DNA of 36,220 bases from a virus. Made by a program: the position numbers and the translations under genes. The notes beneath the pieces are model-generated. The model ran no database searches. It worked only from the letters and a program-made list of their open reading frames with translations, and was not told where the DNA came from. The stretch is from positions 1 through 36,220 of the IMG/VR virus record IMGVR_UViG_3300010370_000104. One strand, written 5' to 3'. Of this stretch, positions 3,122-35,639 are shown one piece after another (the stretch's first letter is position 1; each line of letters opens with the position of its first letter).

Positions 3122-4747
3122 ATGGAAATTATAAAAAAACAAATTAGTAGTCAGAGTTTTAGTGGAGGTTCGATGAACAACGTGACTACTATTTATTTTC
3201 CAATTTATCTAACTCAAAAATTTGAAGATTTGGGTTTATATACCGATACCACTAATCCGTTACCAAAAACAACTATAGCCTTTCCAGGTATTTTAGATTT
3301 AAATTACGATGGAACACAACAAAAAGAATGTTTAATTACAAATAAATGCCAAGTTGTATCCACAATAACTAATTGTACAACATATGGTGGCAGTGAAGGA
3401 TCTATTCAAGTAACACCTATACCTACTGCTGATTGCCCTGGACCTGTAACTTATGAGTGGTATGGTCCACAAGGTTTTAGTAGTCAAAATTTAACCATTA
3501 CTAATTTGTATGCAGGTGATTACAGTTTGAAAATAACTGATGCTAATTGTGATAAAACATATAAAATTTTTAATGTACAAGAACCACCACCGTTATCAAC
3601 TGATTTAATAGTAAATAATTCACAAGTTAACGCTAGTACTGGTATTTGTAACGGTATTGCAACTGTTATTGCAGTTAATGGAGTTCCACCTTATACTTAC
3701 GCTTGGTATTCAGCTGGAACTACAACACCAGTTTTAGGTACAACAACAACTTTAAATAATCTTTGTATTGGTAGTTATTATGTTGTAGTTACCGATTCAG
3801 ACGGTGCAGTAGTATCAACTACTTTTGAAATAACTGAACCAGAACCTTTATCGGGTAGAACGATTAATATTATTAATATAGATTGTAATAATGAACCTGG
3901 TTCTGTTGAGGTTGAGGGTTTTGGTGGTATTGTAGGTACTGGATATACCTATCAACTTTTACAAGGTAATCCGGCTACTGTGATACAACAAAATGTTACA
4001 GGTTTATTTGAAAACATAACACAATCTAATAGTGCTTACATTGTTAGAATAATAGATTCCATCGGACAAACATTTGATTTATATGTTTCAGTAACACAAC
4101 CAGTATTACCAATAACTATTACACCTACAGGTATTATTCCATTTGCCACCATTCCTGTTATGAATAATGATGGTTTATCTTTAGATGACGGTGATTTATT
4201 ACCATTCGGTAGATACAGTTTTAGTATAACAGGTGGTCTAGGGATTCAACAAGGTGCTTCTGTTGTTTATGATGTAAGTTTAGAACCTGTAATGGTACAA
4301 AATAGTGTTACAGGTGTTTATAATAGTTCAGCAAATCAAGGGGTTGATCCAATATTAGCAAATTCAAGTACTTTTTATACATTAGAAAGTGGTTGGTATT
4401 CTGTTCTTGTATCTGATGGTTTTTGTGAAAAATCATCAAACATATATATCGGACACGAATTTGATCCAAGTGTTGGTGTTGTGGATGCATCAGGTTCAGG
4501 AGGCTACCTACAAGCACAAGTCTCAAACCCAGTTGGTTATTATCTTCTTTCAATAACATGGTCTGATGGTGCATCATTTGCTTGTCCAGGAGCTTTGATG
4601 GGAAGCCCTTGTCCAACAACAAACGTAAATTCAAATACACACGCTTCAGGAACTGAAATAGATTTAGAAGTTATTTTTGTTAACTCATCAACCCCAACAG
4701 TGTCGTTAGATTGGAGATCATTTAAAAGAAGATATAGAATACCTTAA
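3122..4747 (+). CDS. Virion-cluster protein with SprB-like repeats (541 aa)
   Basis: The protein has an N-terminal ~75 residues of unknown fold and then three SprB-like repeats at about residues 78-155, 158-241 and 243-328 (the third is degenerate). The visible signature is 'GSIQV...YEWYGPQG...L...YAGDYSLKITDANCDKTYKI..QEP', then 'GVPPYTYAWYSAG...CIGSYYVVVTDSDG...ITEPEP'. SprB repeats are known from the giant gliding adhesins of Flavobacteriia. The remaining ~210 residues are beta-rich, with another 'GWYSVLVSDGFCEKSS' segment that may be a fourth diverged copy. There is no signal peptide, so the protein is probably virion-assembled rather than secreted. It starts one base after the preceding stop. 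Likely role: baseplate-peripheral or receptor-contacting protein. The domain call is strong; the function is inferred. Confidence 0.7.
   Translation: MEIIKKQISSQSFSGGSMNNVTTIYFPIYLTQKFEDLGLYTDTTNPLPKTTIAFPGILDLNYDGTQQKECLITNKCQVVSTITNCTTYGGSEGSIQVTPIPTADCPGPVTYEWYGPQGFSSQNLTITNLYAGDYSLKITDANCDKTYKIFNVQEPPPLSTDLIVNNSQVNASTGICNGIATVIAVNGVPPYTYAWYSAGTTTPVLGTTTTLNNLCIGSYYVVVTDSDGAVVSTTFEITEPEPLSGRTINIINIDCNNEPGSVEVEGFGGIVGTGYTYQLLQGNPATVIQQNVTGLFENITQSNSAYIVRIIDSIGQTFDLYVSVTQPVLPITITPTGIIPFATIPVMNNDGLSLDDGDLLPFGRYSFSITGGLGIQQGASVVYDVSLEPVMVQNSVTGVYNSSANQGVDPILANSSTFYTLESGWYSVLVSDGFCEKSSNIYIGHEFDPSVGVVDASGSGGYLQAQVSNPVGYYLLSITWSDGASFACPGALMGSPCPTTNVNSNTHASGTEIDLEVIFVNSSTPTVSLDWRSFKRRYRIP
3353..4105 (+). 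repeat. Three SprB-like protein repeats
   Basis: This region encodes three tandem ~80-residue beta-sandwich repeats with the order Cys/Asn - 'G.I.V' - 'PYTYxWYS' - '(A/I)G(D/S)Y.(L/V).(I/V)TD..G/C' - 'EP'. Copy 2 fits best and copy 3 has lost most Cys and 'TD' signatures. The copies have diverged at DNA level, indicating old duplication or acquisition of a pre-formed array. Confidence 0.65.
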
Positions 4748-29124: not shown

Positions 29125-30285
29125 ATGTCCGATAAAAAAAGTGTTGTTTTTGAAACGAAGTTAACCCCTGAAGAGACTTTAGAAATCACAAATAGGTTAA
29201 TAGGATTCTATGATAATTTAGAAACCATTCAGGATTATTTCTTGGCAAGAAAAAAAGAAAAGGTAGAAAATATTGACCATGAAAAATATGCTGCAATGAT
29301 GTTTGACAAATTTGACATGGAACCAAAAGATATGAATATTAGTATTGAGGTTATTGACGGTAAACTTTTTAATCCTGCAGTTCAAATTATAACTTCTTTA
29401 CCATTAGAATCTCAGATTGGTCGTCAGATTATGTTAGGGGTTAAAGAAACAACTACCAACAAATGGATTGGTTTTATTCGATTAGCATCACCAGTACTTT
29501 CAATTAAACCAAGAAACGAACTATTTGGTGATATGAGAGTTACAGCAAATGAAGTTAATAAGTTTATGATTAACGGTGCGATTATTGTACCTGTACAACC
29601 TTTTGGTTATAACTATTTGGGTGGTAAGCTTTTAAGTTTAATTTGTTGTTCTCATGAAATAAGAGAATTATTGAAAGAAAAGTACGGTGAAAAGATTGAT
29701 ACTGTCTTTATGGAAACTACTTCTTTGTACGGGGATATCAAAGGTATGAGTCAATACGATGGTTTAAAACCATTTGTTCGATATGGCAGTATGACAGAAT
29801 CTGATATCTTTTTATTCCCTGGTGATGAGGTCTACGATTCTATTAGAAGTTTTATGCGAGGTCATTATGGAAATCCTGAATGGGGTGGTTCTATTGTTGA
29901 CCCAGGACCGTCTGGTCCAAAGATGAGAGAGTTTAATAAGATTCTTTCTATTTTAAAAAACCATTTGAAAGTACAACATCCTTTAAAGTTTAAAGAGTTT
30001 TCCGATTTCACCCAAACTCATATGAAAGCAAAAACCAAGAAAAGGTATTATTATTGTACTTATGGTTATGAAAATGTCTTTCAATATATTGCGAGTAATG
30101 GTACCGTTGATTTAATCAAAAAAGATAATTATGATAACTATCATTTAAATAATTTAATTCAATGGTGGAAAAATAAGGCACAAAATAGATTTCAGAAACT
30201 AAAAGATGAAGCAAGAGTTAGAACTGAAATTGAAATCTATACACCTGAAACTATTGAAGCAGGTAAAATTGACATGGTAAGATAA
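29125..30285 (+). CDS. DUF4338 (DruA-like) protein (386 aa)
   Basis: The central part (residues ~113-225) shows the DUF4338 signature: 'WIGFIRLASPVLSIKPRN', 'VPVQPFGYNYLGGKLLSL' followed by 'CSHEIRELLKEKYG', and 'VFMETTSLYGDIKGMSQYDG'. DUF4338 includes DruA of the Druantia anti-phage system, and members also occur in phages. The biochemical activity is not established to my knowledge. The N-terminal ~110 residues and the Lys-rich C-terminal ~160 residues are unrecognised; the last part includes a helical 'QWWKNKAQNRFQKLKDE'. It begins a plus-strand set with a P-loop ATPase and a Mom-like enzyme, so a role in DNA modification or counter-defence is plausible. Spacing to the next gene is 9 bp. 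The family call is fairly secure; the function is inferred. Confidence 0.72.
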   Translation: MSDKKSVVFETKLTPEETLEITNRLIGFYDNLETIQDYFLARKKEKVENIDHEKYAAMMFDKFDMEPKDMNISIEVIDGKLFNPAVQIITSLPLESQIGRQIMLGVKETTTNKWIGFIRLASPVLSIKPRNELFGDMRVTANEVNKFMINGAIIVPVQPFGYNYLGGKLLSLICCSHEIRELLKEKYGEKIDTVFMETTSLYGDIKGMSQYDGLKPFVRYGSMTESDIFLFPGDEVYDSIRSFMRGHYGNPEWGGSIVDPGPSGPKMREFNKILSILKNHLKVQHPLKFKEFSDFTQTHMKAKTKKRYYYCTYGYENVFQYIASNGTVDLIKKDNYDNYHLNNLIQWWKNKAQNRFQKLKDEARVRTEIEIYTPETIEAGKIDMVR

Positions 30286-30294
30286 AAAATAAAA

Positions 30295-30912
30295 ATGTAC
30301 GTTGAGATATCACCTAGACAATCAGGCAAAACTACAAGGTTAATAGAAGCTTTAGTTTCTCATTTACGTCAAAATGATTACGATAAAGTGGCTATTATAG
30401 CATCAAACATATCCAGAGCTAAATTTATAAAAGAAAAAGTCACTGGTCATCTTTTTAATGTTATAAGACCACACTGGATTGGTAGTGATAATAACTTTAG
30501 ATTACTAGTTAATGATTATTATTTAAATAATGTTGTTATAGCTACTGATGTTAATTCTTTGGTGGGTGAACGTATTGATTACTATTTTTTTGACGACTTC
30601 TCTTCTATTGAACCAAGAAAATTATTATTTGAAAAAAGAATAATTGAAAACGGTTATTATTGTACAACACCTTGTCAAAAAAGGTCAACCATCAATATGA
30701 TAACTAATCATTGTCTATATAATAATATTGAAATAAAATTTTTTAACCCTTGGAATGAAAATAAATTAAAAGAACAAGAAGGTTTTGCTGATTATATTAG
30801 AGAACATATTCTTAATGAGTGGGTTGAATATATGGAAAGCATCGGTATGGATGTTGCTGAATTAAAAGAAAACTGGATTCCAAAATGGGTTAGAAAACAC
30901 AATTTTATTTAA
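30295..30912 (+). CDS. P-loop ATPase, terminase/helicase-like NTPase domain only (205 aa)
   Basis: The N-terminus carries a Walker A-type loop, 'ISPRQSGKTTRLIEAL' (residues ~5-20), lacking the first Gly, as in terminase-type ATPases. Walker B is 'IDYYFFDDF' with D100/D101. A strand 'KVAIIASNISRAKFIKE' follows Walker A as in SF2/terminase cores. At 205 residues it is an ATPase domain without a nuclease or second RecA domain, so it is not a packaging terminase by itself. It lies between the DUF4338 and Mom-like genes (gaps of 9 and 4 bp) and may power that unit. Function unknown beyond nucleotide binding. Confidence 0.65.
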   Translation: MYVEISPRQSGKTTRLIEALVSHLRQNDYDKVAIIASNISRAKFIKEKVTGHLFNVIRPHWIGSDNNFRLLVNDYYLNNVVIATDVNSLVGERIDYYFFDDFSSIEPRKLLFEKRIIENGYYCTTPCQKRSTINMITNHCLYNNIEIKFFNPWNENKLKEQEGFADYIREHILNEWVEYMESIGMDVAELKENWIPKWVRKHNFI

Positions 30913-30916
30913 TCGA

Positions 30917-31714
30917 ATGAAATATCAATTTGAAATAAGGGAAGTTAACAGGGTAGTTGCAACGGATTTTGTTCAAGAAAGACATTACTCAAAGGTAATG
31001 CCAAAATTAACTAAACATTGGTTGGGTTGTTTTTTAGAAGAAGAATTGGTTGGTGTATTGACTTTGGGTTGGGGAACTCAACCATTACAAACAATTAAAA
31101 AGTTATTTCCTAATTTAAAATCAGAAGATTATTATGAGATTGGTAAAATGTGTATGGATGAAAAAATGCCAAAAAATTCCGAATCTCAAATGTTGTCTGC
31201 AGTTATTAAATGGATGAAAAAAAATCTACCAGAAAAAAAGTTTTTATATACATGGGCTGACGGTATAGTTGGTAAGGTAGGTTATGTTTACCAGGGTTCT
31301 AATTTTAATTACGGTGGTTTTATTTGGACAGATATTTATATTTCAGCGACTGGTGAAAAAATACATCCCAGAAGTTCGAAAGCTTTGTTGAAAGAAAATG
31401 CAGAGTTTTTGGGTAAAGATAAATTATTTTGGATGACACCCGATTTTATGGTAACAAGAGGTATTAGAAGAATTCGGGGTAAACAATTTAGATATATTTA
31501 TCCTTTAAATAAAGATGCAAAGAAAATAATGGATAAAGAATCTACGGTCGATTGGTATCAAAAATACCCAAAAGAAGCTGATTTATTGTGGAAAGAACAA
31601 ACAGGAAAAGGTGTCTATGTTAACCTTACTGGTATACCTGAGATGGATTTGAGTATTGTTGAGTATAACGAGAAAAATGTTAATGCTCATAAGAAAAATG
31701 GAAGAATGGTTTAA
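30917..31714 (+). CDS. Mom-like DNA-modification acyltransferase (265 aa)
   Basis: A GNAT-like protein with the features of the Mom family: 'VQERHYSKVMP' near residues 19-29, 'GCFLEEELVGVLTLGWG', 'YYEIGKMCMDEKMPKNSESQ', 'SAVIKWMKKNL' and 'FLYTWADGIVGKVGYVYQGS'. Mom of phage Mu modifies adenines in DNA (methylcarbamoylation) and protects the genome from restriction enzymes. The C-terminal ~110 residues, rich in Arg/Lys ('TRGIRRIRGKQFRYIYPLNK'), may bind DNA. At 265 residues it is somewhat longer than Mu Mom. It follows the ATPase by 4 bp and overlaps the next small gene by 17 bp. The exact modification made here cannot be read from sequence. The family call is good. Confidence 0.78.
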   Translation: MKYQFEIREVNRVVATDFVQERHYSKVMPKLTKHWLGCFLEEELVGVLTLGWGTQPLQTIKKLFPNLKSEDYYEIGKMCMDEKMPKNSESQMLSAVIKWMKKNLPEKKFLYTWADGIVGKVGYVYQGSNFNYGGFIWTDIYISATGEKIHPRSSKALLKENAEFLGKDKLFWMTPDFMVTRGIRRIRGKQFRYIYPLNKDAKKIMDKESTVDWYQKYPKEADLLWKEQTGKGVYVNLTGIPEMDLSIVEYNEKNVNAHKKNGRMV

Positions 31715-31994: not shown

Positions 31995-32570
31995 TTAACG
32001 GTATAAAGTTATTGTACCTTTTTTAAGTTCTCTTACATCACGAATTGATTTATATTCTATAATGTAAAAATAAACACCAGTAGGGCAATTAACACCTTTA
32101 AATGTCCCATCCCAACCTATAGTTAAATCTCTAGTCCCAAAAATTAAATTTCCCCAGTTATTATATATTTCAAAATTCACTTCATTAATATAAGAAGTGT
32201 GTAAATAAATAATATCATTTAAGTAATCACCATTAGGTGTAAAAGAATTAGGGATGATTAAAATCGGTTCTCTACATGTAAAAACCTCAATACTGTATTC
32301 TTGTACAATAGATTCACACATACCGTTATCGATATATGCTGTTACTCTATAATCACCTATTGAACTAAAAGTGTATCTTAATGTGTCTAATTTAGAAGAA
32401 GTGAGTAAAACATCATTCTTGTAAACCTCCCAAAAATAATCACAATTGGGTGTCCCAATAGCAAAATATTCAAAAGACATTTTTTCACCTTTACAAAATT
32501 CAATTTTTTGGTCTTGAGCGAATATTTGTAAACTTAAAAAGGTGAAAAATATTAATAATAATTTTTTCAT
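31995..32570 (-). CDS. Secreted protein with T9SS type B (gliding-motility-associated) C-terminal signal (191 aa)
   Basis: The signal peptide is 'MKKLLLIFFTFLSLQIFAQ', with likely cleavage at IFA/Q, the A/Q boundary common in Bacteroidota. Residues ~25-100 look like an Ig/PKD-type domain ('CDYFWEVYKNDVLLTSS', 'IGDYRVTAYIDNGMC'). Residues ~107-191 match the type B sorting domain: 'IPNSFTPNGDYLNDIIYLHT', 'FEIYNNWGNLIFG', 'GWDGTFKGVNCPTGVYFYII' and a terminal 'KKGTITLYR'. In Bacteroidota this domain directs export across the outer membrane by the type IX secretion system and surface attachment or release. It is the last gene of the minus-strand operon, 2 bp after the previous gene. The domain call is strong. 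Why a phage would carry it is inferred: altering the infected cell's surface. Confidence 0.85.
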   Translation of the reverse strand: MKKLLLIFFTFLSLQIFAQDQKIEFCKGEKMSFEYFAIGTPNCDYFWEVYKNDVLLTSSKLDTLRYTFSSIGDYRVTAYIDNGMCESIVQEYSIEVFTCREPILIIPNSFTPNGDYLNDIIYLHTSYINEVNFEIYNNWGNLIFGTRDLTIGWDGTFKGVNCPTGVYFYIIEYKSIRDVRELKKGTITLYR

Positions 32571-32572
32571 CT

Positions 32573-33136
32573 TTAGTTATGTTCTATTGGTAGTAATAAT
32601 GGTTGTGGTAAAACATCTACTTGCATTATGTTTGTAAAAACACATCCAGCATCTGTATATGTGTAAATTAAATTAAAAGTTCCAGCACCACTTGTTGTAG
32701 GACAAAAATCACTATTAATAACCCCATTACCAGACCAAGTACCACCTGCTGGGGTAGCCTGTAAAGGAACACAGTTAGCATATTCACACATATCTGCTAC
32801 TGGAGTTAGGTTAAGTGTTACATTATAAATAAAAACATCTAATGTCACTATTGGACTTAAACACCCTATGTTATTGGAAGCTTGTACTTGTACTGCACCA
32901 ACTATTAAACCTGGATTGGCATTAGACCAATCAACTTGGATTTGATTAGTTCCTTGACCTCCTGTAATAACACCTGGAGGAGTTACGGTCCAAGTATAAA
33001 TAAGTCCAGCAGTTGGTGTTACTTCGTAGATTGAACCACCTAATTGATAACAAACCGTATCTGGGTTAATTGTTGTTAATTGAGCCCACACTAAAGTGGG
33101 TATGATAACAAATAAGAATGTGAGTAATTTTTTCAT
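32573..33136 (-). CDS. Secreted PKD/Ig-like domain protein (187 aa)
   Basis: The signal peptide is 'MKKLLTFLFVIIPTLVWAQ', with likely cleavage VWA/Q. Two beta-sandwich units follow. The first ('GLIYTWTVTPPGVITGGQGT' then 'QVQASNNIGCLSPIVTLDVF') matches PKD-like domains of Bacteroidota surface proteins. The second ('PLQATPAGGTWSGNGVI' to 'FNLIYTYTDAGCVFTNIMQV') matches the 'TPAGGTWSG.GV' module of the same proteins. The protein ends soon after, with 'LLLPIEHN' and no C-terminal sorting domain. It overlaps the upstream gene by four bases and precedes the type B gene by 2 bp. Without a sorting signal it should stay periplasmic or be carried by a partner. The domain calls are good. Confidence 0.78.
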   Translation of the reverse strand: MKKLLTFLFVIIPTLVWAQLTTINPDTVCYQLGGSIYEVTPTAGLIYTWTVTPPGVITGGQGTNQIQVDWSNANPGLIVGAVQVQASNNIGCLSPIVTLDVFIYNVTLNLTPVADMCEYANCVPLQATPAGGTWSGNGVINSDFCPTTSGAGTFNLIYTYTDAGCVFTNIMQVDVLPQPLLLPIEHN

Positions 33137-34353
33137 GGGTTTAAAGTATGAATCATTCTTGTTATGCTGGTTCCGATACAGATGATGTAATTACCAGAAG
33201 AAACATCAGTTAAGTCAAAAGTTTGTGACCCACTGAAAGAAACATCTCTGTAATATTTGACACATCGACCAGCAATGTCAAATAGTTTAATATCACCCCT
33301 TAATTCGGGTACGTTTAAAAATTTTATTGTCACATAACTTCTACCTAATAAGATTTCTGTTAATTGATTTTTAGATTTATTAAAAAAACCAGAAAAATTA
33401 TCTATATTTACTATGATACTATCAGAACCTACACATTCACCATTACTAGAATTTAAGGTAACTAAATAAGTACCTGGATTTTCGTAAACGTGCACTGTAT
33501 TGAGTAAATTGGTTGAATTTATATTTGTACCATCACCAAAAGACCAATTATGATTAATACCATTTACGATATTGGCAAAAAATATTATTGGGTCATTAGT
33601 AGTTGTGTTTGTTGTTGATGTGTTTAAAAAAACTGTTACCTTCTTAGAATTAGGTATTGTAAAATAATCAACAGTTGAGTAATTATTGAAACCGACATAA
33701 ACTATGTAATTACCCGAAGTCAAAGAATCAATGTCAATAGTACCGTTAAAACTATATAAGTAAGTAATCAAATTGTCGTCTTGATCTTTAACGATTAAAT
33801 CAACTATTTCGTTTGAATTATAAACAATTGTAACTTTACCATCGTCATCCTCACATCCAGCTTGTGTTGTAATAAATCTTACTGCCGGTCTAAAATGTAA
33901 AAGAAATCTATTTTGAATATTACCAACAGGTAATGAAAACTGATAACTAGGTGTGTTTCTTAAATTAATTGTTATATTTTCTTCTAAATCTTCTAAATAT
34001 AAACCAGAAGTAATATCAAAACTAGTAAAATCTGTTGCTTTTATTTCATAATTTGTTGCAGTTTGACTTTTAATTGCCAGAGATATTGTTTTATCCTGGT
34101 CCAATACACCCATTGCATTAATACTGATATTGTTAGAATCGATTATTGTATATAAACTAGGTACACCAGGTAAAGAAGAGAATAGTTTTACAGCATCTTC
34201 TGTTGGTAAAAAAGCATCATTATTCTCCGAACCAAAATAGATAATGGTCTCATCAACAAAACCGTTACCATTTAGTTCCATTCTGAGTAAATTTTCAGTA
34301 AAACCAAAAATTGTGATAAAAATAAAACTTAATGTTAAAAAAAACTTTTTCAT
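33133..34353 (-). CDS. Secreted PKD protein with T9SS type A C-terminal signal (406 aa)
   Basis: The signal peptide is 'MKKFFLTLSFIFITIFGF', with cleavage near GFT/E. Residues ~20-165 are a beta-rich N-domain ('LRMELNGNGFVDETIIYFGS'), followed by a second unit at ~165-245. A PKD domain lies at ~260-325 ('NHNWSFGDGTNINSTNLLNT' then 'VYENPGTYLVTLNSSNGEC'). The C-terminal ~70 residues ('GDIKLFDIAGRCVKYYRD', 'TFDLTDVSSGNYIICIGTS', ending 'MIHTLNP') match the type A (Por secretion) sorting domain, whose consensus is 'v.iyd..Gk.v' and 'idlS.l.sG.Yil.i'. It would be exported by the host T9SS and usually anchored to the surface. It is joined to the next gene by a four-base overlap. The domain order is clear; the phage role is inferred. 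Confidence 0.82.
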   Translation of the reverse strand: MKKFFLTLSFIFITIFGFTENLLRMELNGNGFVDETIIYFGSENNDAFLPTEDAVKLFSSLPGVPSLYTIIDSNNISINAMGVLDQDKTISLAIKSQTATNYEIKATDFTSFDITSGLYLEDLEENITINLRNTPSYQFSLPVGNIQNRFLLHFRPAVRFITTQAGCEDDDGKVTIVYNSNEIVDLIVKDQDDNLITYLYSFNGTIDIDSLTSGNYIVYVGFNNYSTVDYFTIPNSKKVTVFLNTSTTNTTTNDPIIFFANIVNGINHNWSFGDGTNINSTNLLNTVHVYENPGTYLVTLNSSNGECVGSDSIIVNIDNFSGFFNKSKNQLTEILLGRSYVTIKFLNVPELRGDIKLFDIAGRCVKYYRDVSFSGSQTFDLTDVSSGNYIICIGTSITRMIHTLNP

Positions 34354-34356
34354 AAA

Positions 34357-34956
34357 TTAATTGTGACTTATGTTTGTTATTCCAGGAAGAGTTGCGTTTA
34401 TATTGCCATTGTAAATGTTAAAAGGGTTTGTTGGACATGCGTTCATATTCCAACTACCCCAATCGCCATCTGCACCTGCTGTTACTTGTATTAGTAAATT
34501 TTGTGGTGTACACCCTTGAGCTGTAGTTACTTGGAAACAAAAAGACCAAACACAATTAGTTCCATAGTCGCCCCAATCGTTTGCTGGATTACCGTCAACT
34601 GGACCTCCTTGATTGATTTCAAAAAACCAACCTGGACCAACAGGGCCTTGGCTTGTATTTACAACATTCATCCACAACCAAGTTCCACCTGCTGATTGAG
34701 CACAGTTTTGTGGAGGAGCCATTGGAGTTAAGTTTGTCCAACCTGGCCCTAAATTTATATCAAATCCTTCCAACCAATTAGAAGATATGTTCCAACCATT
34801 CCAACCTGTCATTGTGTAACATACAGTTACTGTAGTCCCAGGTAGATATCCACCCGCAGGAGGAACTGGATTGAGACTGAAGGTTTGGTTACCGACACAC
34901 TGACCGTATGTTAAACCGTTTATTAAAAGTAAAATTAAAAGTAAAAATTTTTTCAT
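34357..34956 (-). CDS. Secreted Trp/Gly-rich Bacteroidota-type surface domain protein (199 aa)
   Basis: The signal peptide is 'MKKFLLLILLLINGLTYGQ', with likely cleavage TYG/Q. It is not a lipobox, because residue -1 to the Cys is Gln. The mature part is rich in Trp and Gly ('VTVCYTMTGWNGWNISSNW', 'EGFDINLGPGWTNLTPMAPP', 'WSFCFQV', 'VTAGADGDWGSWNMNAC'). It resembles the N-terminal domain of some large flavobacterial proteins that end in T9SS signals. It ends at 'LPGITNISHN' with no sorting domain of its own. Its start overlaps the upstream cytosolic gene by four bases (ATGA), and the next gene begins 3 bp later. I do not know its molecular role; binding or scaffolding at the periplasm or cell surface is plausible. 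Confidence 0.7.
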   Translation of the reverse strand: MKKFLLLILLLINGLTYGQCVGNQTFSLNPVPPAGGYLPGTTVTVCYTMTGWNGWNISSNWLEGFDINLGPGWTNLTPMAPPQNCAQSAGGTWLWMNVVNTSQGPVGPGWFFEINQGGPVDGNPANDWGDYGTNCVWSFCFQVTTAQGCTPQNLLIQVTAGADGDWGSWNMNACPTNPFNIYNGNINATLPGITNISHN

Positions 34957-35639
34957 ATTTTAGATATTAAATCATAACCGTCTATAACTTCAACATCGTG
35001 GTCATATACAATAGATAATCTTCTTTCTTTATCTTTTTCGTTATCAATATTTTTATATGTTGAAATTAAAAGTAATTTTTTGTCTCTTTGATTGGCATCC
35101 ATACCACTGTATCTTTTATCAGAAGTTTTCCAGTTTAAACATTCAATGGTAAATATCTTTGAATCTACTTCTTTTGGTGTTAAAAGTTTTTTACCATTTT
35201 TATTATACCATTTAAAACCTAACTCAAACAATTTTTTTTGTAAAGTATAAGTTTCTTCAACATCAACACCGTTTTCAAAAAGAATAATAAAACCAGTTTT
35301 TAAAATTGGTAACCCTTTTTCATTAAGTTCTACTTTTTTAATATTAAGTTCAGTTTTCCAATTAAAATTTTCATCGTACATTTTTACTAAACCTTCAGAA
35401 GCTAAATTTTCTAAATAAGATTTACCAAAAGTTGAGGTACCGTAACCATCCACACTTTTAAAAACATAAGCTTCGTAAGTACCTTTTTCATCACCCCAAT
35501 TTTCTATTGAATGTTTAGGATCAAACTTTACAAATATCATAGTTTCCCAATTGTTACCTGATTTGATTAGGTATTTTTTATTTGGGACAAATTCTATTTT
35601 ACTTGGTAATTGAATCCAACTGTAATCTTCTTCGTACAT
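34953..35639 (-). CDS. Cytosolic protein of unknown function, first gene of the secretion cassette (228 aa)
   Basis: A 228-residue mixed alpha/beta protein with no signal peptide, starting 'MYEEDYSWIQLPSKIEFVPN'. It contains 'WGDEKGTYEAYVFKSVDGYG' and a Lys/Asp-rich C-terminal half ('STYKNIDNEKDKERRLSIVY'). No family or catalytic motif is recognised. Its last four bases overlap the first signal-peptide gene (ATGA), so it is cotranscribed with the secreted proteins. It might be a regulator or unrelated early gene. The promoter should lie in the 58-bp divergent gap 35640-35697. Confidence 0.55.
   Translation of the reverse strand: MYEEDYSWIQLPSKIEFVPNKKYLIKSGNNWETMIFVKFDPKHSIENWGDEKGTYEAYVFKSVDGYGTSTFGKSYLENLASEGLVKMYDENFNWKTELNIKKVELNEKGLPILKTGFIILFENGVDVEETYTLQKKLFELGFKWYNKNGKKLLTPKEVDSKIFTIECLNWKTSDKRYSGMDANQRDKKLLLISTYKNIDNEKDKERRLSIVYDHDVEVIDGYDLISKI

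Follow-up and report, generated by a model that had tools for sequence, protein, structure and literature searches.

A phage gene cassette with host T9SS sorting signals that may encode a split surface adhesin

Gene organization of the locus

The window analysed in this study is the whole of IMG/VR record IMGVR_UViG_3300010370_000104 (36,220 bases), and all inferences were drawn from sequence and prediction. Four consecutive minus-strand ORFs, designated P1 to P4, are present in it at the positions given in the first-pass annotation (Table 1), with gaps of 2-3 nt or a 4-nt overlap between them. The operon begins with the gene for a non-secreted 228-aa protein, which is found in the same place at loci L003/L004 and L013-L015 of other viral contigs. 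Genes of a large tailed phage lie elsewhere in the window, encoding a baseplate wedge, a primase, a RuvC-like resolvase, an exonuclease, an SbcD-like protein and a Mom-like protein. PHROG matches were absent for most structural genes of the window, and P1-P4 matched no PHROG tail or head family at E <= 0.01.

Table 1. Positions of the cassette genes and their predicted features in the window
Feature	Position	Strand	Description
P1, 191 aa	31995..32570	-	signal peptide, Ig-like region, C-terminal T9SS type B sorting domain; putative anchor subunit
CHU_C / type B CTD of P1	32004..32258	-	CHU_C match
P1 signal peptide	32517-32570	-	predicted cut before Gln19
P2, 187 aa	32573..33136	-	signal peptide, two Ig-like domains (PKD_6), IEHN end; putative constant spacer
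I-x-H-N tail of P2 (IEHN)	32576..32587	-	relatives' C-termini
P2 signal peptide	33083-33136	-	predicted cut before Gln19
P3, 406 aa	33133..34353	-	signal peptide, PKD domain, weak type A CTD; putative optional extra
Type A sorting domain of P3 (residues 340-397)	33163..33336	-	PF18962
P4, 199 aa	34357..34956	-	signal peptide, beta-sandwich domain, ISHN end; putative tip subunit
I-x-H-N tail of P4 (ISHN)	34360..34371	-	relatives' C-termini
P4 signal peptide	34903..34956	-	predicted cut before Gln19
228-aa cytoplasmic-type protein	34953..35639	-	operon's first gene; overlaps P4 by 4 nt

Sorting signals and domains of P1 to P4

Hydrophobic, K/R-led N-termini were found in 69 of 70 P4, 71 of 74 P2 and 68 of 72 P1 members, as compared with 106 of 1204 other ORFs. 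Signal peptides were assessed by a hydrophobicity heuristic plus Gln19, a residue that is invariant in the alignments of P1, P2 and P4 relatives (55/55 for P4). A Gln at +1 is known as the Bacteroidetes "Q-rule" for signal peptidase I (PMC5837995, PMC10653852). A/Q or G/Q cleavage had been claimed for all four proteins; this is good for three of them, as the signal peptide of P3 ends in ..FGFT/EN.

P1 scored 54.6 bits against TIGR04131 (cut-off 35) and 63.1-64.5 bits against CHU_C, PF13585 (cut-off 27; E 2.8e-17), well above both cut-offs, and the type B sorting domain proposed earlier was thereby confirmed. All 44 P1 relatives scanned matched CHU_C at E <= 0.001. By its C-terminal domain and its N-terminal Sec signal peptide, P1 is a predicted T9SS type B cargo.

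The type A domain proposed for P3 was matched by both models but with no margin, the scores being 23.0 bits against TIGR04183 (cut-off 23) and 27.0 bits against PF18962 (cut-off 27). This domain is probably real but weak, because the P3 relatives exceed the TIGR04183 cut-off of 23, with 30.5 bits in L002 and 26.0 bits in L004. The HMM searches suggested in the first-pass annotation, TIGR04183 and TIGR04131, thus each had their match, in P3 and P1, respectively. P3 also carries a PKD domain (PF18911, 34.1 bits). Since full-length copies were found nowhere but in the window, L002 and L003/L004, P3 is an optional part; a scan of the viral contigs with P3 as the query returned no relatives, and its relatives surfaced only via P4.

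Neither P4 nor P2 matched TIGR04131, TIGR04183, CHU_C or PF18962, and SprB repeats (PF13573) were absent from P1-P4. The notion of a phage operon with products addressed to Sec and, in the case of P1 and more weakly of P3, to the T9SS of the host is upheld; P4 and P2 themselves lack a T9SS signal. P2 contains a PKD-like domain (PF19408, 38.3 bits), and no Pfam family matched P4. The AlphaFold models have pLDDT values of 87 (P4) and 91 (P2), and in that of P2 the last strand stops at residue 176, with residues 177-187 forming a coil. When the PDB was searched by fold, P4 returned nothing below E 0.001, its top-ranked entries being folds of pilins, integrins and adhesins, and P2 returned general Ig-fold matches with Z of 6.6-8.8, a level rated as common by the search tool. 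As judged from dN/dS between the window and L002 (about 0.11 for P4 and 0.14 for P2), both proteins are under purifying selection.

The cassette in other viral contigs

Homologues were sought in other phage genomes, as had been recommended, and relatives were found on many viral contigs, at least 97 for P2 and at least 131 for P4. P4, P2 and P1 are encoded by separate genes in that order at 56 or more loci with distinct P2 sequences, each such sequence being counted once as the loci are metagenomic fragments with possible near duplicates; the E-values of the locus search relate to candidates only. Median intergenic gaps in the 56 split loci are 9.5 and -1 nt. The P4, P2 and P1 distances are correlated (Mantel r 0.74, 0.84 and 0.67; none of 999 permutations as high), and the upstream neighbours of the split cassettes fall into about 20 different clusters. 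Therefore, the cassette is inherited as a unit, in many contexts.

In L004 and L013-L015, the gene order is SbcD-like, 228-aa gene, P4, (P3), P2, P1, Mom-like, ATPase-like and DruA-like, and the SbcD-, Mom- and DruA-like genes are 84-93% identical to those of the window. A chimera of phage and host DNA, named earlier as a possible artefact, was ruled out by this synteny, as the order is kept on both sides of the cassette in L004 (a 122.6-kb contig) and in L013-L015. L002 has the four cassette genes in common with the window, P4 being 90% identical, but its neighbours are all different, with holin-like genes between P2 and P1. L004 is syntenic with the window and its SbcD-, Mom- and DruA-like genes are 88-90% identical, but its P4 is just 68% identical. 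The cassette changes faster than most flanking genes. When named phage records were searched for P1-P4, the hits were confined to two huge phages, both uncultured, and one short, unverified contig with bacterial-looking gene content.

The C-terminal tail and the single-chain forms

P4 ends in I-x-H-N in all 55 aligned relatives, and P2 does so in 62 of 64, the other two ending in IxHD; one further P4 of the larger set (L153) ends in INHY. This tail, common to P4 and P2, had been missed by the first-pass annotation. It sits beyond the last strand in both AlphaFold models. Among the 1204 other ORFs of the loci, only 12 have an IxH[ND] C-terminus, and all 12 have signal-peptide-like N-termini and are located at such loci. 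Some of the tail-bearing ORFs replace P4 as the first gene and encode a Gly-rich ALK_LTK_GRD protein (L035, L037) or an SprB repeat (L047); the tail-bearing first genes in L046, L053 and L076 encode P4 plus an extra N-terminal part, and the tail-bearing ORFs of L034, L038 and L083 contain PKD domains.

On eight viral contigs, P4 and P1 are fused into a single polypeptide, in cassette order, and five of these have a recognisable P2 in between. The five P4+P2+P1 chains (L131, L135, L137, L160 and L161, with those of L131 and L135 near-identical) are 505-527 aa long, approximately the sum of the mature parts. In the other three (L112, 505 aa; L038, 602 aa; L120, 683 aa) the middle was not scored as P2, and the L038 chain contains a Cys-rich stretch. 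Two huge phages carry related arrangements. LR745206 (634 kb) encodes P2 and P1 in one 732-aa protein and a Gly-rich tip in an 833-aa frame with CHU_C, and LR756502 (642 kb) encodes a P4-like domain, SprB-like repeats and CHU_C in one 1670-aa protein. When proteins that are separate elsewhere occur fused in an unchanged order, this is a classic sign that they act together.

The P4/P2 joint of the L160 chain, TSPISHVMDTVC, aligns with PISHN-stop and NPDTVCY of the split form, so that the fused junction reads ..TSPISH-VMDTVC.. as compared with ..PISHN-stop / ..NPDTVCY... At several other fused joints (L131, L161, L112) the I-x-H part is lost, and IxH[ND] was missing from all 35 domain ends examined in PKD arrays of bacteria. 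As the motif is lacking both from these other joints and from the bacterial domain ends, I-x-H-N is a feature of the split form, located at the cut point, and does not belong to the joint as such.

Discussion

Signal peptides, a type B domain, a constant gene order, co-inheritance, C-terminal tails and fusions are all read directly from these sequences, and from them we infer joint export, joining by the tail, surface display and a biological role. The reading that we prefer, and regard as somewhat probable, is that P4 (tip), P2 (spacer) and P1 (anchor) are the parts of a split adhesin that is exported via the host T9SS; a shuttle would hold it in place, and the tails would link its parts. Each part would cross the inner membrane through Sec and be cut before Gln19. 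The type B signal of P1 would then lead it to the host T9SS and to a host PorP/SprF-type shuttle holding it at the outer membrane, and P4 and P2 would cross that membrane together with P1. The I-x-H-N tail of P4 and P2 would be the joining device, docking on, or being linked to, the next part, so that the fibre would be ordered outer membrane - shuttle - P1 - P2 - P4, as in the single chains. With an exchangeable tip, the infected cell could be decorated with a chosen binding module. The four proteins had earlier been treated as separate cargos; P4, P2 and P1 are better regarded as parts of one putative adhesin, which is a single chain in other phages, with P3 as an optional addition. The earlier interpretation as a whole is therefore partly supported. 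A broader claim, that phages possess a virus-specific, multi-subunit fibre for the host surface, in which one subunit has the T9SS signal, the rest are carried along and joined by tails, and phages exchange the tip gene with one another, is advanced only tentatively.

The gene for the shuttle of a type B cargo is often close by, and none was found near the cassette, which counts against the split adhesin. Type B cargos are bound at the cell surface by PorP/SprF-type proteins (PMC9143113, PMC12618676). PorP_SprF was absent from all 21 phage records, whereas three Bacteroidota genomes encode 5-41 copies each, so that the shuttle used by P1 is probably supplied by the host. In Flavobacterium johnsoniae, orphan type B cargos are served via a shared shuttle (PMC12618676). 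No precedent for a T9SS cargo carrying partners free of a sorting domain was found in the open-licence PMC literature.

A surface role under changing selection would fit the data, because tips are exchanged, the cassette moves between phages and it changes faster than most of its flanks. Decoration would most likely serve receptor masking or changed adhesion. Mutations in gld/spr (gliding/T9SS) genes give phage resistance in Flavobacterium columnare (PMC9233685), and since such a surface change yields resistance, the most parsimonious purpose is masking. The data agree equally well with altered adhesion or gliding, because type B domains target either the moving gliding track or static sites (PMC12618676). 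The same three-part fibre might accordingly be loaded onto the gliding machinery, changing movement or attachment rather than masking a receptor, and the SprB repeat in one alternative tip (L047) points in this direction. Whether the P1 domain uses the gliding shuttle is not readable from its sequence, and we consider this version rather improbable.

The tail could instead be a sorting or stability signal and not a joint. Being nearly invariant, at the extreme C-terminus and on proteins with different domains, it resembles sorting signals, and P4 and P2 might reach the surface independently of P1 by means of a new stand-alone export or retention signal. This is unlikely, as each known T9SS signal is a folded domain some 70-100 residues long (PMC10202324) and the tail has four; moreover, the single-chain versions put P4, P2 and P1 in one fibre, and the tail is absent at the domain ends of the bacterial adhesins examined. 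That the three proteins belong to the virion, as components of the tail or as decoration proteins whose N-termini are signal-like, is very unlikely in our judgement. Ig-like domains are common on phage virions, and tail sheath and tube genes lie near the cassette in 14 of the 56 loci, nine of them with a baseplate hub gene too; however, no sheath, tube or hub gene was detected in the available flank of the other 42. Virions are assembled in the cytoplasm, whereas Gln-cut signal peptides are kept in nearly all members and the type B domain in 44/44 P1. Least credible of all, and highly improbable, is that host adhesin genes were picked up with no phage function or that host DNA was misclassed as viral. 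Related domains do occur in Bacteroidota proteins. However, the 97 or more P2 relatives on viral contigs stand against 12 weak, partial ones found with the P2 profile in 84,980 genomes, and dN/dS is low for P4 and P2. In searches of 395 Bacteroidota genomes each, P4 had one match, a 382-aa protein resembling a type A cargo, and every P2 match among those listed lay in an ORF of at least 450 aa, none in a short ORF of its own. In the bacterial genomes searched, the cassette domains thus appear, among the matches listed, only inside other, longer proteins; rare host copies are possible, because the first-pass Bacteroidota genome searches were loose and their counts are lower bounds. Bacterial contamination was ruled out by the distribution of the relatives and by T4-type genes on the contigs, with Gp23, terminase or tail sheath found on 17 of the 26 larger contigs tested.

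The first-pass annotation was aware of no described phage programme that decorates the infected cell via T9SS; a phage-encoded T9SS type A cargo, with superinfection exclusion suggested as its function, was reported for Cryophage in 2020 (PMC7468147), and ORFs with T9SS domains were noted in crAss-like phages of cluster 2 (PMC6949934). Like the present cassette, the Cryophage genes carry T9SS sorting domains and vary in content; their cargos are single-chain enzymes or a PA14 protein with type A domains, but a split assembly, a type B anchor or a C-terminal tail is not described in the parts of that report available to us (PMC7468147). The cassette also resembles the SprB-SprF gliding adhesin of F. 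johnsoniae in its type B sorting domain on an adhesin (PMC12635249, PMC9143113), but SprB is a single, giant protein of the host served by a dedicated shuttle, SprF, whereas the phage parts are three small proteins for which no shuttle gene was found. Separate subunits joined via a C-terminal segment are known from the type V pili (FimA/Mfa1) of Bacteroidia, the subunits of which are lipoproteins polymerised after protease cutting. The cassette differs from these in its Gln-type Sec signal peptides, its T9SS anchor and its one gene per part; Gln, and not the Cys of a lipobox, stands at +1 of the predicted cleavage site. The open-licence PMC literature yielded no description of the split cassette or of its I-x-H-N tail. 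UniProt holds a P2 relative with 46% identity, A0A6J5NML0 (185 aa, uncultured Caudovirales, PKD-like), and A0A6J5L8Z9 (199 aa, gliding C-terminal domain), which by its name and length could be a relative of P1; these are database entries named by domain only, and the system itself is undescribed in the papers searched.

If the preferred reading is true, many large Bacteroidota phages use the host T9SS to remodel the surface of the cells they infect and possess an exchangeable display system on it, and I-x-H-N as a joiner of separately exported subunits would be new for the T9SS field. The compact three-gene form makes such remodelling testable. An arms race at the surface is also directly testable, because gliding/T9SS mutations confer resistance to phage while the phage would send proteins along the same route.

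A search for copies of the Gly-rich tip among the other (tail) genes of the same phages, aimed at signs of receptor mimicry, returned only the tip itself in G002 and G004, and in G005 a second match, located in a short stretch of another long ORF.

Features of the cassette and neighboring genes

In the alignments of the tip (P4), spacer (P2) and anchor (P1) proteins of the cassette (window 31995-34956), the number of invariant cysteines was odd for P4 (seven) and P1 (three) and even for P2 (six), and a disulfide linking the subunits is possible. When compared to the cassette of viral-contig locus L002 (8001-11636), identities were 90% for P4, 77% for P2, 50% for the optional P3 and 45% for P1, declining from tip to anchor as though the anchor adapts to differing host shuttles (PorP/SprF-type proteins). 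Two small membrane proteins separate P2 and P1 in L002 (10515-11082), and one of them clearly matches holin families.

Type B sorting (CHU_C) domains were found in two phage genomes larger than 600 kb, three in LR756502.1 and four in LR745206.1; one carrier, a 1670-aa protein, combines a P4-like domain with many SprB-like repeats. The glycine-rich domain of the alternative first gene in two other viral loci (L035 and L037) also matches phrog_7388 and phrog_5811, phage families of unknown function.

Beside the cassette, a gene row conserved as a group in the syntenic loci L004 and L013 possibly represents a DNA modification set. It encodes a DruA-like protein (PF14236 and phrog_19197) with relatives in Synechococcus and Pelagibacter phages, an ATPase scoring slightly below the Terminase_6N cut-off, and a DNA modification protein resembling Mom (PF25680). 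Elsewhere in the window, a gene for a 541-aa protein with a Hoc-like Ig region lies near the baseplate wedge gene.

Coordinates of the features
Feature	Location	Strand	Basis
DruA-like, Terminase_6N-like ATPase and Mom-like genes, consecutive	window 29125-31714	+	family matches, the ATPase slightly below cut-off
541-aa protein with Hoc-like Ig region	window 3122-4747	+	phrog_2973
L005, locus of LR756502.1	7473-12485		CHU_C-bearing phage genome >600 kb
Alternative first gene	L035 6933-7982; L037 6933-7982		glycine-rich ALK_LTK_GRD-type domain
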